DNA of 64,000 nt, taken from Myotis daubentonii (lineage: Eukaryota; Chordata; Mammalia; Chiroptera; Vespertilionidae). The notes below the pieces were generated by a model. It did not search any database and was not told where the DNA came from. It worked only from the letters and a program-made list of their open reading frames with translations. Made by a program: the position numbers and the translations under genes. The stretch is taken from contig NC_081844.1 in assembly GCF_963259705.1 (NCBI RefSeq), positions 12,509,715-12,573,714 on the forward strand, given 5' to 3'. Shown here piece after piece: positions 15,903 through 58,484 of this stretch; within the stretch, counting starts at the first letter, position 1; each line of letters begins with the position of its first letter.

Positions 15903-16502
15903 TTAAAGGATACCTTTTAGCATTTCATATAATACTGGTTTGGTGGTGATGAACTCCTTTAGCTTTTTCTTATCTGTGAAGCTCTTTACCTGACTTTCAA
16001 TTCTGAATGATAGCTTTGCTGGATAAAGTAATCTTGGTTGTAGGTTCATGCTATTCATCACTTTGAATATTTCTTGCCACTCTTTTATGGACTGCATAGT
16101 TTCTGTTGAGAAATCAGCTGACAGTCGTATGGGTACTCCCTTGTAGGTAACTAACTGTTTTTCTCTTGCTGCTTTTAAGATTCTCTCTTTGTCTTTTGCT
16201 CTTGGCATTTTAATGATGATGTGCCTTGGTGTGGTCCTCTTTGGATTCCTTTTTTTTGGGGTTCTCTGTGCTTCCTGGGCTTGTAAGTCTACTTCTTTCA
16301 CCAGGTAGGGGAAGTTTTCTGTCATTATTTCTTCAAATAGGTTTTCAATATCTTGCTCTCTCTCTTCTTCTGGCACCCCCATAATTCGGATGTTGGTACA
16401 CTTGAAGTTGTCCCATTGGCTCCTTACACTATCTTCATATTTTTGGATTCTTTTTTCTTTTTGTTTTTCCGGTTGGGTGTTTTTTGCTTCTTCGAATTTC
16501 AA
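15903..16502 (-). pseudogene. HAL1-type ORF1, C-terminal half (copy B)
   Basis: About 199 codons holding the RNA-recognition segment (IRIMGVPEEEREQDIENLFE), TPRHIIIKM and the C-terminal domain with RLSADFSTET, ending KPVLYEMLKGIL. All landmarks of an L1-type ORF1p nucleic-acid-binding half are present and open. Only the frameshift at 16500 separates it from the coiled coil. Confidence 0.8.
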
Positions 16503-16741
16503 ATCTTGACTTGATTCTTGCTATCCTCTAGTCTACTGTTGGAACTCTGTATAATATTCTTTATTTCAGTCAGCGTATGCTTAATTTCTAGTTGGTCCTT
16601 TTTCATAACCTCGAGGGTCTCATTAGATTTATTGAGGGTTTCACTACATTTATCGGTGGTTTCTAGAAAATTCTTGAAAAGCCTTATAAGTGTGGTTTTG
16701 AACTCTATATCCAGTAGTTTGCTTTCCTCCATTTCTGTCAT
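16499..16741 (-). pseudogene. HAL1-type ORF1, N-terminal half (copy B)
   Basis: 80 residues from an internal ATG (MTEMEESKLLDIEFK), a heptad-rich coiled-coil stretch with one 14-residue unit (DKCSETLNKSNETL). The frame ends at TGA where one A is missing from the AAA seen in copies A and C. In the family this part trimerises ORF1p. Overlaps the C-terminal half by 4 bases. Confidence 0.75.
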
Positions 16742-28692: not shown

Positions 28693-29347
28693 AAAAGACC
28701 ACCATGACTTCAAAAATACAATTAAAAGACGGAACGGACATCATCCAGAACCACAGGAAGGCTGGCTGAGTGCAAGTTCTACAACTAGGAGGAAAGAGAA
28801 TAGCATACCGAGACTCAGAGGAGGCGCAGTGCTGAAGTCAAATACTAAGATGCGGAGGTGGCTGGTGGCGGAGGGCGCGGTTGTCGTTTTCAATCGGGAG
28901 GGAGTCTCAGACGCTGAGCTCCAGATCTGGGCGAGTCTCTAGGGACCCAGACTCAAATGGGAGAAGCGGGACTGTCTGGCTTCAGTCGGAACTCGAAGGC
29001 AGCTTTCTCTCTGAGGTTTGCAGTGGTTGCTGGGACTCTGAGAGGCAGAGCCCCCAGGATGGGAATGAGAGCAGCCATAACTGCTCTCTCAGCCCACCCT
29101 GTTGATCCCTTGGGACCCGCCCAGCCCAAGCCCTGCACAGAGCCATTTGCCGGATAGCCTCAGGCAAAGGCTAGATTAGCACCTCCCCAGAGGACAGAAG
29201 TTCTCTCACTTCAGACACAACTGATTCTCACAGCCACTTGGCCTGGAGCTCAAATCCCCTCTATTATTACCTACAACAATCAAGGCTTAACTACGACAAG
29301 ACTGCACACAAAGACCAGTAGGGGGTGCACCAAGAAAACATACAAAA

Positions 29348-30199
29348 ATGCGGAGACAAAGAAACAGGACGCAAAGGTCAGAAATGGAAGATATAGAGCT
29401 CAAAACCACACTTTTAAGGTCTTTCAATAATTTTCTAATAACTGCTGATAAATGTAGTGAGATCCTCAAGAAATCTAATGAGACCCTCGATGTTGTGATA
29501 AAGAACCAACTAGAAATTAAGCATACACTGACTGAAATAAAGAATATTATACAGACTCCCAACAGCAGACCAGAGGAGCGCAAGAATCAAGTCAAAGATT
29601 TGAAATACGAAGAAACAAAAAACACCCAACCGGAAAACCAAAATGAAAAAAGAATCCGAAAATATGAAGATAGTGTAAGGAGCCTCTGGGACAGCTTCGA
29701 GCGTACCAACATCAGAATTATAGGGGTGCCAGAAGAAGAGAGAGAGCAAGATATTGAAAACCTATTTGAAGAAATAATAACAGAAAACTTCCCCCACCTG
29801 GTGAAAGAAATAGACTTACAGGTCCAGGAAAAGCAGAGAACCCCAAACAAAAGGAATCCAAAGAGGACCACACCAAGACACATCATAATTAAAATGCCAA
29901 GAGCAAAAGACAAAGAGAGAATCTTAAAAGCAGCAAGAGAAAGAAACCCAGTTACCTACAGGGGAATACCCATACGACTGTCAGCTGATTTCTCAACAGA
30001 AACTTTGCAGGCCAGAAGGGAGTGGCAAGAAATATTCAAAGTGATGAATACCAAGAACCTACAACCAAGATTACTTTATCCAGCAAAGCTATCATTCAGA
30101 GCGGAAGGTCAGATAAAGAGCTTCACAGATAAGGAAAAGCTAAAGGAGTTCATCACCACCAAACCAGTATTATATGAAATGCTGAAAGGTATCCTTTAA
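29348..30199 (+). CDS. Open ORF1 of HAL1-type copy C (L1 ORF1p-like RNA-binding protein, 283 aa)
   Basis: Starts at ATG (MRRQRNRTQRSEMEDIELK), the conserved ORF1 start. Residues about 15-75 are heptad-rich coiled coil with one 14-residue unit. About 100-185 is the RNA-recognition domain (IRIIGVPEEEREQDIENLFE). TPRHIIIKM and RLSADFSTETLQARREW mark the C-terminal domain, and the frame ends KPVLYEMLKGIL. Length is near that of L1 ORF1 proteins in general, allowing for an in-frame 5-codon loss compared with copy B. In L1 biology ORF1p coats element RNA and acts as a nucleic-acid chaperone in the cytoplasmic particle. Here there is no ORF2, so any movement would need reverse transcriptase from an L1. 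I see no stop or frameshift; expression is unknown. Confidence 0.7.
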   Translation: MRRQRNRTQRSEMEDIELKTTLLRSFNNFLITADKCSEILKKSNETLDVVIKNQLEIKHTLTEIKNIIQTPNSRPEERKNQVKDLKYEETKNTQPENQNEKRIRKYEDSVRSLWDSFERTNIRIIGVPEEEREQDIENLFEEIITENFPHLVKEIDLQVQEKQRTPNKRNPKRTTPRHIIIKMPRAKDKERILKAARERNPVTYRGIPIRLSADFSTETLQARREWQEIFKVMNTKNLQPRLLYPAKLSFRAEGQIKSFTDKEKLKEFITTKPVLYEMLKGIL

Positions 30200-56617: not shown

Positions 56618-56623
56618 TTAGCC
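56618..56623. repeat. 6-bp target duplication of the provirus (left)
   Basis: TTAGCC, repeated exactly at 58164-58169. Confidence 0.9.
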
Positions 56624-57437
56624 TGTCACAACCTTTTGCAGTGAGGATTCAGGATCTGGAGAAAGGGCTGATGCACAAATGGCTATGTTATGGGTTGGCT
56701 CAACGAGATAGACCACTGACTCAGAATTGAAATTTAAGAGCCTTTTATTAAGCTGGCCAGGTGACCACAGCACCTATCTCCCCCTCTGGGAGATTCGGAG
56801 CATGTGGCAGAGATCAAGGGTGCAGTATGATCCTTTATAGCAAATCAGTGTTAGAAAAAAAATACAAAGCATTCCATTAGCTATTCCTTAGAAGTTCACA
56901 GAAAGTTCATAAGCACAAATGGGGGGTAAACAGAGTCACACCTGGCTGGAGCATATCATAACACATTGTTTTTCTAAGACAATCTAGCAATTTTTCTTCT
57001 ATGGTTCCTAACCCTGACACAATCCTCCATACGTCAGTCCCTCCTCCCAGCACATTCTGTAACATTCTGTAACCCTTCCATGCCGCAGTCCCTCACCCTA
57101 GCACAGCTATACTAGACAAGAAATATAAATTTAGAAATTATTGGGGGGAGCCAGACAGAGACCTACTCTCTAGTGGAGTGGCTCCCTGAATCTCTGGACC
57201 CATAGCTTTTTATTTACTAAAATATACATTTTCCCTTTAGCAAAACAAACAGACATCAATGGTAATGTTTGGTAAATAATAAAGGATTATCAGGTTAGGG
57301 GATTGCCTTCAGCCCTTCAGCCAGCAGCAGGGTAATACAATGCTGATTCTCAGCCCTTGCTGAATATCAAAGTTTATCAGCCTCTGACAGACTTCTCACA
57401 TTTATATGTTAACTACTTGTTGGTCTTTGTCTCCACA
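56624..57437 (-). mobile_element. 3' LTR of the defective provirus
   Basis: 814 bp. Starts TGTGGAGACAAAGACC next to the polypurine tract and ends TTGTGACA. A TATA-like TATAAAGG lies at about 56833-56840 and AATAAA about 90 bp downstream at 56744-56750, a normal LTR arrangement. Its first 53 bp match the 5' LTR stub at about 87%. Confidence 0.82.
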
Positions 57438-57440
57438 TAT

Positions 57441-57459
57441 CCCCCTTTTTGTTTTTTTT
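57441..57459 (-). promoter_or_regulatory. Polypurine tract of the provirus
   Basis: A-run then AAAAAGGGGG on the minus strand, 3 bases before the 3' LTR. In retroviruses this primes plus-strand DNA synthesis. Confidence 0.8.
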
Positions 57460-57579
57460 AATAAATTTAGAAAGGTGTATGCCATTCACAGAGCTCAGGT
57501 CCTTTTAAGATTTTTAAATTCAATGAAAAGGATTGAGTTCTTTCATGGCCTTTAAATTGCTGCCAGGCATTCAGGGAAT

Positions 57580-57750
57580 TAGTCTGTAGTAGGCTCCTTT
57601 CTGAGCCATCAGTTCTTTGAGTCCCCATCCCAATCACTGTCCCCTGTGACATGACAGCAATGATATTCGAGTTCTGGATGGTGGATAAACTGTGGGCAAT
57701 GGCAATGCAGGTCCGACCTTCTTTGGCTTTGTCCTGGGCAACCTGCACCA
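57580..57750 (-). pseudogene. ABCB11: ABCB11-like terminal coding fragment inside the provirus
   Basis: The minus strand encodes the end of an ABC transporter nucleotide-binding domain: [20 protein letters not shown] with the H-loop histidine, then [12 protein letters not shown], then after a 1-base frame break [10 protein letters not shown]. The residues IIAVMSQG and [10 protein letters not shown] fit ABCB11 (bile salt export pump) better than ABCB1 or ABCB4. Homology starts near VQVA, close to where the last exon begins in this family as I know it, and stops just before the expected C-terminus. No intron sequence is visible. Flanked by retroviral sequence on both sides. A non-functional fragment of about 57 codons. 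Confidence 0.75.
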
Positions 57751-57859
57751 ATGCACAGCTGATGACTGCTAACATGGCAAGGCGTCTTTACCATCCCCCA
57801 TCCCTGGACTGTTTCTCCTCTGTCTCGTCAGTGTGTTGCTTGGGGCCACAGCTATCTGT

Positions 57860-58090
57860 GGTTGGAGTAGTCTGGCCAGTTTCTCTCTAGGATCCATTGC
57901 TGAAATTTCCACATGGGCTTGGAGGAGTTTTCTGGAAATACACAAGCATATCCTTGACCAAAGTTTAATAAAGGGACCCTTCCATAAACCAGACTAGGGA
58001 TCTTTCCATTTAACCAGACCATTTTCCTTTGGCTTATTCTGACACCAGTATAATTCCATGGGTGTCTTTCCATCAGCATTACAAGTGAAA
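57860..58090 (-). pseudogene. Decayed retroviral pol (integrase C-terminal) remnant
   Basis: Minus-strand fragments YACVFPENSSKPMW and, in another frame, VKWKDP resemble the C-terminal domain of betaretroviral integrase. The frame is broken by stop and shift. A short ATG-started frame overlapping its end lies where env normally starts. Only a relic; not functional. Confidence 0.5.
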
Positions 58091-58484
58091 AAAATTTTAA
58101 AGTGAAAAATGACGGACTTCTTGCATTTATATGTTAACTACTTGTTGGTCTTTGCCTCCAGCATTAGCCTTTTATATATATAGATATATACGGAATGCCT
58201 TTCCATACCTGGAAATCTACTTCATAGTTTGTAATGTTACATAGTGGTCCTTGGTGTGCATGTATTTATTTATTTATTCTGGACACTTGAGGGTTTTTTT
58301 ATTTTTTCCTTTGTTCGCTACTATGAGCAATACTTCAAATTGCATTTTTTGGACTTCTGTTTTCACACTTTTGCTATCATATCTGTAAAATATATTCCTA
58401 GAAATAGTATACTTAGGTCAAAGGGTATGTGTAATTTAATTTGTGGAAGATTGTGAAATTGCTCTCTAAATTGCTGATAAACGT

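Follow-up and report, generated by a model that had tools for sequence, protein, structure and literature searches.

Host-gene capture by retroviruses is best known from tumour viruses, for which parent and intermediate can seldom be examined. Transducing retroviruses such as Rous sarcoma virus (RSV) are infectious and have growth effects. The main text of a study of crocodilian endogenous retroviruses (PMC4299795) names RSV (src) as a transducing retrovirus, gives a capture model as background and describes CrocERV31 of alligators, in which nectin3 replaces env and of which a related consensus keeps env. Six insertions of CrocERV31 are reported there, with purifying selection and a predicted protein spanning the nectin3 gene length, and the authors think that it spread by retrotransposition. 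For maize Bs1 and retroposition mediated by long terminal repeats (LTRs), template switches at micro-similarities are described (Tan et al. as cited in PMC5408686). The bat endogenous betaretroviruses (PMC3621094) and the vesper-bat MLERV1 (PMC4643047) are described in the main texts as class II elements, in families with many env-less copies. The present locus lies in 64,000 nucleotides (nt) of Myotis daubentonii DNA (contig NC_081844.1, positions 12,509,715 to 12,573,714, assembly GCF_963259705.1), called the window below. It contains a defective class II element carrying a piece of the host transporter gene ABCB11, which encodes the bile-salt pump, one member of a family in which the last ABCB11 exon probably replaced most of env. 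The likely course, as judged from the joints of this piece in many copies, would be splicing from a donor inside env, then a template switch and then spread.

The captured exon and its family

The native gene was located by a protein search with a 233-residue human ABCB11 query, the best 150 of 359 candidates being scored. It lies on contig C8, with exon hits at 48695536, 48698770 and 48701039 and the last exon at 48702317-48702517; exon 28 starts at C8:48702320, directly after GCAG. Native exon 28 showed 97.2% DNA identity over 177 nt with the closest copy of the family (L017) and 91.8% over 171 nt with the window copy. By these identities the window fragment comes from the last ABCB11 exon of the host; the element around it is of class II and betaretrovirus-like. 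The initial annotation had read about 170 bp as the end of ABCB11, and the native exon bears this out with a refinement: the piece is 174 nt long, runs from exon nt 1 to about 176, and carries a 2-nt loss that breaks the frame. Its extent was judged from the share of copies matching the native exon in 9-nt blocks, which was 0.82 in the block from nt 163, 0.59 in that from nt 172 and 0.19 in that from nt 181 (0.45-0.46 in the last two blocks, which are forced). No match to exon 27 was found in any of the 40 copies aligned to the native gene. Intron 27 was not continued across the left joint in these copies, with the exception of four that match 8 nt with a gap and five that match 1 nt, and the only further intron 27 match was poly-T, in L042, on the opposite strand.

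ABCB1 and ABCB4 were also considered as the source. Their summed scores exceeded that of ABCB11, since both nucleotide-binding domains of ABCB1 and ABCB4 contribute matches; the comparison with the native exon decided for ABCB11, and none of the outcomes that the initial annotation had named as refuting occurred. Chance similarity to an ABC transporter is ruled out by the two identities given above, and the same order of parts at 40 places on many contigs excludes an assembly error, so that an origin of the window copy by either route can be given almost no chance. As a separate observation, C6:42042681-42043148 holds an ABCB-like copy with a 173-amino-acid open frame and 63% identity to residues 73-228 of the ABCB11 query; these residues span several exons in the native gene, so that the copy probably arose from a related transporter gene by retroposition.

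The whole-genome search with the window fragment gave 649 first-look candidates, of which the best 40 places (86-100% identity) were scored and all fetched. A 41st row was a 29-bp piece of one of these places, and counts out of 41 refer to the 40 places plus one further copy, L051. The annotation had proposed looking for other copies with the same order; in this genome the pol C-terminus, the env leader and ABCB11 were present in all 40 scored copies and the env tail in 39 (BLAST), so that its single relic gives way to a multi-copy family. The LTR start of the window copy was found in 33 of the 40; five of the seven misses form a group with a longer env tail, three members of which had an LTR identity of 71-75%. 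LTR matches flanked the ABCB11 piece on both sides in five of the 13 long stretches fetched (L009, L012, L015, L016 and L020), and a 6-bp target duplication was read for the window copy and for L012 (AACTGG). Host coding sequence between viral sequences within one LTR-bounded element is therefore observed in the family itself. Domains above cut-off were found in three of nine open pieces searched, including L020 (Gag_p24, RNase_H), and L017 showed RNase_H, Integrase_Zn, rve and IN_DBD_C above cut-off. The class II features present are thus TG...CA LTRs with a 6-bp target duplication and retroviral gag and pol domains. After the 5' LTR of L016 and L020 there is by eye a possible Lys-type primer-binding motif.

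Compared with native exon 28, the copies widely share two silent changes, A36T in all 40 and C105A in 36 of 40. As these differences and the joints are common to the copies, the pattern fits one capture, shortly ahead of their spread, and upholds the earlier proposal that a retrovirus took up host ABCB11 before it multiplied.

The two joints and the proposed course of the capture

On the left, env leader and exon 28 are spaced as exact splicing would leave them in 40 of 41 copies, L051 included; L021, the one that departs from this, lacks a nucleotide a few bases beyond and is normal in the row-by-row reading of joints. The left joint was identical in 40 of 40 rows and the right joint in 36 of 40, where the script anchored. 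The env donor lies after a whole codon and exon 28 starts with a whole codon, so that the fusion of env and exon 28 is in frame.

If the left joint was made by splicing, the parental virus should show GT at this point. A GT-containing joint pattern was therefore searched genome-wide, with the reversed pattern as control, and matched at seven places against none for the control. Six of the seven had no ABCB11 and continued as env; the seventh, L051, carries ABCB11 and has an altered joint. A GT-free follow-up by similarity with one of the six relatives gave 72 candidates, the best 40 of which were scored (including the six) and the other 34 fetched. Among these 34 env-bearing relatives the viral side of the joint was GT in 33 (29 GTAAT and 4 GTGAT) and ATAAT in the remaining one. 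The joint pattern of the env-bearing relatives, with up to three mismatches, was found at 30 places and its control at none. That these relatives run on as env was borne out by L057, where the GP41 profile scored 40.5 bits against a cut-off of 29.6; in L050 HERV-K_env_2 was below cut-off (E 0.019).

The right joint has another character. The exon 28 side reads CTACAAACTGGT and the env side TTACAAACTAGT in L057 and TTACAAACTAAT in L058, and an 8-nt word, TACAAACT, is common to exon 28 and env in both env-bearing relatives seen there; in L055 env breaks off ahead of this point. Downstream of it, the L017 tail matched L057 at 90.8% over 260 nt. The left joint thus looks like splicing and the right joint like a template switch. 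The exon-exact, intron-free left joint would fit passage of the host part through spliced RNA; with a single exon, a host exon-exon junction cannot show.

The following course is proposed. An env-bearing virus would have integrated in ABCB11, in sense orientation and upstream of exon 28. Its read-through RNA would then have been spliced from a donor in env, just past the signal-peptide region, to the normal exon 28 acceptor, a step suggested by the exon-exact joint together with the GT on the viral side in the env-bearing relatives. The chimeric RNA would have been packaged together with a normal genome, and reverse transcription would have switched from the env 3' part to exon 28 at the shared TACAAACT of the observed joint. 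The recombinant, minus most of env, would finally have multiplied in germline genomes as a retrotransposon, a mode that agrees with the observed copies and LTR structure. The initial annotation had invoked packaged host mRNA; capture through RNA stands, with the change that the RNA was probably a spliced virus-host RNA and not a plain host mRNA. In the main text on bat betaretroviruses, Rev-like proteins are predicted for some of them, and the export signal of such proteins, as in HERV-K Rec, can sit at an exon boundary and/or in a frame other than env (PMC3621094). With such proteins and such a signal, an env-internal splice donor is plausible in this kind of virus.

Several points weigh against the proposed course. 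The evidence for use of the donor is DNA sequence, and GTAATA is, by the donor consensus, a mediocre donor. The GT in the env-bearing relatives is one inherited state, so that its weight, which adds to that of the exon-exact start, is that of about one coincidence in 16 and not of 33 tests, and the query behind the 34 relatives itself came from the GT-requiring pattern. HERV-K_REC was below the cut-off of 27.5 bits in L053 and L055 (23.9 and 20.6 bits; E 4.4e-5 and 4.8e-4). A tree of the env leader mixes ABCB11-bearing and env-bearing rows with weak support, because they recombined or because the leader has too little signal. Selection of the 40 copies went by similarity to the window fragment and so disfavours copies with altered joints. 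Some of the 40 do not count as separate insertions, L031/L032 and L042/L043/L047 being near-identical. A parent provirus was not met near C8:48.70 Mb among the 40 and 40 scored places, no dedicated search having been made at ABCB11.

To these points belongs a short word at the left joint. TGCAG occurs both in the native intron end, TTTTTGCAG, and in some env-bearing copies, TGTGCAGTAA, and L016, L026, L029 and L030 are the four copies that align 8 nt into the intron 27 end with a gap, so that a template change on unspliced RNA, with a later 1-nt loss, could give a left joint of the same look. The left joint might then have arisen without splicing, as in LTR-mediated retroposition, by a change of template during reverse transcription at a short word common to viral RNA and to ABCB11 pre-mRNA or mRNA. 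The main text of PMC5408686 describes this mechanism for LTR elements, and the right joint does resemble such a switch. Against this, a switch at TGCAG predicts TGTGCAG ahead of ACG, and 40 of 41 copies leave no room for the extra nucleotide, so that the 1-nt loss is needed; had the switch taken place on mature mRNA, part of exon 27 would be expected, and there is none. We regard an unspliced origin of the left joint as unlikely. Alternatively, L1 or DNA recombination could have placed an ABCB11 retrocopy, or a genomic segment of the gene, in a provirus that was already there, both being amplified together later. This would accord with the other intron-free ABCB-like copies in the genome, such as that on C6. 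The piece has by eye neither poly(A) nor a target duplication around it and brings no exon 27, its joints fall at a donor-like site and at the 8-nt env match, and an insertion would not delete the env stretch between both joints, which makes this origin highly improbable. Splicing on the left and a template switch on the right are therefore kept as the preferred account.

Two observations on the copies and their relatives may be added. In L016 and L026 the env-leader sequence just ahead of the signal-peptide region is as in the env-bearing relatives, and most other copies seen are without about 66 nt there; the longer leader may be the ancestral form or a later recombination. On contig C23 lie 13 of the 40 scored env-bearing places, three of which, near 88.4-88.6 Mb, resemble local duplicates.

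Layout, fate and age of the copies

The window element lies on the minus strand and reads, in its own direction, LTR stub, pol end, env leader, ABCB11 piece, short env tail, polypurine tract and 3' LTR (Table 1).

Table 1. Parts of the ABCB11-bearing element in the window (window positions)
Feature	Position	Strand	Basis
Target-site duplication TTAGCC, left	56618..56623	.	sequence
3' LTR, TG...CA ends, 814 bp including nested insert	56624..57437	-	aligned with four LTRs: L012 (both), L015, L011
Nested TG...CA insert, 420 bp, solo-LTR-like, 4-bp duplication GCTA	56686..57105	.	gap in four other aligned LTRs
Polypurine tract adjoining 3' LTR	57438..57458	-	sequence; also ahead of other copies' listed 3' LTR starts
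Remnant of env 3' part, between ABCB11 piece and polypurine tract	57459..57577	-	partly by position
Captured ABCB11 exon 28, nt 1 to ~176, 2-nt deletion, frame broken	57578..57751	-	91.8% to native C8:48702322-48702492
Env leader (Rec-like N-terminus and signal-peptide region), ends at splice-exact joint	57752..57867	-	L017 match; env-bearing relatives
Integrase C-terminal domain remnant, pol end	57894..57986	-	solved-chain matches
5' LTR stub, 53 bp	58111..58163	-	92% over 51 bp to 3' LTR
Target-site duplication TTAGCC, right	58164..58169	.	sequence

The target duplication, the TG...CA ends, the LTR stub, the pol-end remnant, the ABCB11 stretch and the polypurine tract listed by the initial annotation are all present in the sequence. 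Its 3' LTR has the length given and is not a single LTR: the family's own LTR, as aligned among the copies, is about 390 bp, and the 814 bp of the window are such an LTR split by the nested insert. The insert itself is probably a solo LTR of another class of endogenous retrovirus. The annotation was also right about the end of pol but had taken pol as the only viral neighbour, and the ABCB11 piece is flanked by env leader and env tail. Window positions 57753-57826 match L017, the segment occurs in 40 of 40 scored copies, and the env-bearing relatives run on here as env; on the other side 57518-57570 match the L017 tail at 89%, the remainder of the env remnant being assigned by position only. 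For the pol end the best two solved-chain matches were Pr160 (E 3.3e-4) and Integrase (E 3.5e-4), with Pfam IN_DBD_C below cut-off. Compared with copies that have both LTRs, such as L012, the window copy is without nearly all of the 5' LTR, gag and most of pol. In the window copy (L001), L012 and L015 the 5' LTR starts TGCTGG and the 3' LTR TGTG, though identity is expected at integration; some other copies' 3' LTRs start TGCTGG or TGCCGG. Elsewhere in the window, open frames of 302 and 205 amino acids at 29291-30196 and 15906-16520 may be pieces of LINE-1 ORF1, which they resemble.

The in-frame fusion gives a chimeric frame of 68 codons up to the stop, with 8 residues from the env signal-peptide region and about 59 from the ABCB11 piece. 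Read from the ATG of the former region, this frame is kept in 5 of 41 copies (L016, L017, L024, L026 and L029) and fails in 36; in the alignment, 10 of 40 copies, the window copy among them, carry the 2-nt loss near exon nt 125-140. Changes common to at least three copies (n = 70) comprised 42 nonsynonymous, 26 silent and 2 stop changes (60/37/3%), against a neutral expectation of 67.6% nonsynonymous, 29.1% silent and 3.3% stop, and so are slightly enriched in silent changes (37 vs 29% expected, as raw percentages, from an alignment that drops insertions and forces gaps). Among private changes (n = 100) there were 71 nonsynonymous, 22 silent and 7 stop, with silent changes slightly below expectation. 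Because 36 of 41 copies fail to read the frame and the changes look near neutral, the host piece was probably a near-neutral passenger, constrained early on at most slightly. The other view, in which the element benefited from the captured exon, through a small chimeric protein or through an RNA segment aiding export or stability, and this benefit drove its spread over the env-bearing relatives, seems quite improbable. The loss of env was probably the more lasting effect of the capture.

With the rate of 2.7e-9 per site and year quoted for vespertilionid bats in the main text of PMC4643047 (another rate shifts all dates), LTR pairs gave ages of 11.8 million years (My) for L012, 13.0 for L020, 23.7 for L016 and 12.6 for L009, and 9.1, 11.4, 21.5 and 12.1 My in the same order when CpG sites were left out. 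The four LTR pairs thus date to about 9-24 My. First-look candidates numbered 649 with the ABCB11 query and 72 with the env-bearing query, an excess that fits spread without an envelope; both figures count unverified copies from different queries, and the ABCB11 figure is inflated by a tandem array on contig C24. Of the scored matches to the ABCB11 protein query (the best 150 of 359 candidates), 57 lie on that contig (17.2 Mb) between about 5.5 and 16.6 Mb, often about 25.7 kb apart (for example at 8477395, 8503113, 8528750, 8554510 and 8580249). There the element seems to be part of a large tandem array, and the contig may belong to a sex chromosome. A viral-contig scan gave two pattern matches, none of which was confirmed.

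Comparison with described captures

In the literature, judged by titles and abstract openings, no capture of ABCB11 by an endogenous retrovirus was found. Among the matches listed there was also, by title or abstract opening, no mammalian family of this kind; most subscription journals lie outside this coverage, so that this is not proof of absence. The stem 'captur' does not occur in the main texts of PMC3621094, PMC4643047 and the bat retrovirus review PMC8546640, nor the stem 'splic' in that of PMC4299795.

Since the family with the host exon, the relatives that keep env and the intact donor gene all occur in one genome, both joints can be read base by base. They suggest that splicing from an env-internal donor can make the first joint of a capture. 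The family also offers a dated natural case in which a virus loses its envelope to a host exon and then multiplies, and the exon is a clean marker for tracing one retrovirus lineage across related hosts.

The elements of PMC3621094 and PMC4643047, as their main texts describe them, resemble the present family in being class II elements of bats, some with Rev-like proteins predicted from env, among which env-less copies are common. Like RSV-type transducing retroviruses in the capture model of PMC4299795, the family would have passed through a virus-host chimeric RNA and recombination and holds host sequence in a viral genome; unlike them it is a germline family with an apparently functionless transporter fragment. 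It shares with Bs1, as cited in PMC5408686, host gene pieces gained by an LTR element via RNA, and differs from Bs1 and LTR-mediated retroposition in that one of its two joints looks spliced. CrocERV29 with KIT-ligand, in the main text of PMC4299795, likewise preserves in the germline a retroviral capture of host mRNA; the family here differs in being without most of env. The nearest likeness is to CrocERV31 of the same text, where host coding sequence also stands in place of env within an endogenous retrovirus lineage; the bat family differs in being class II, in carrying one terminal exon, in its 40 scored places, in its near-neutral change and in its splice-exact left joint. Capture that replaces env is therefore already known from crocodilians, and what is new here is the splice-exact joint and the abundance of the copies.
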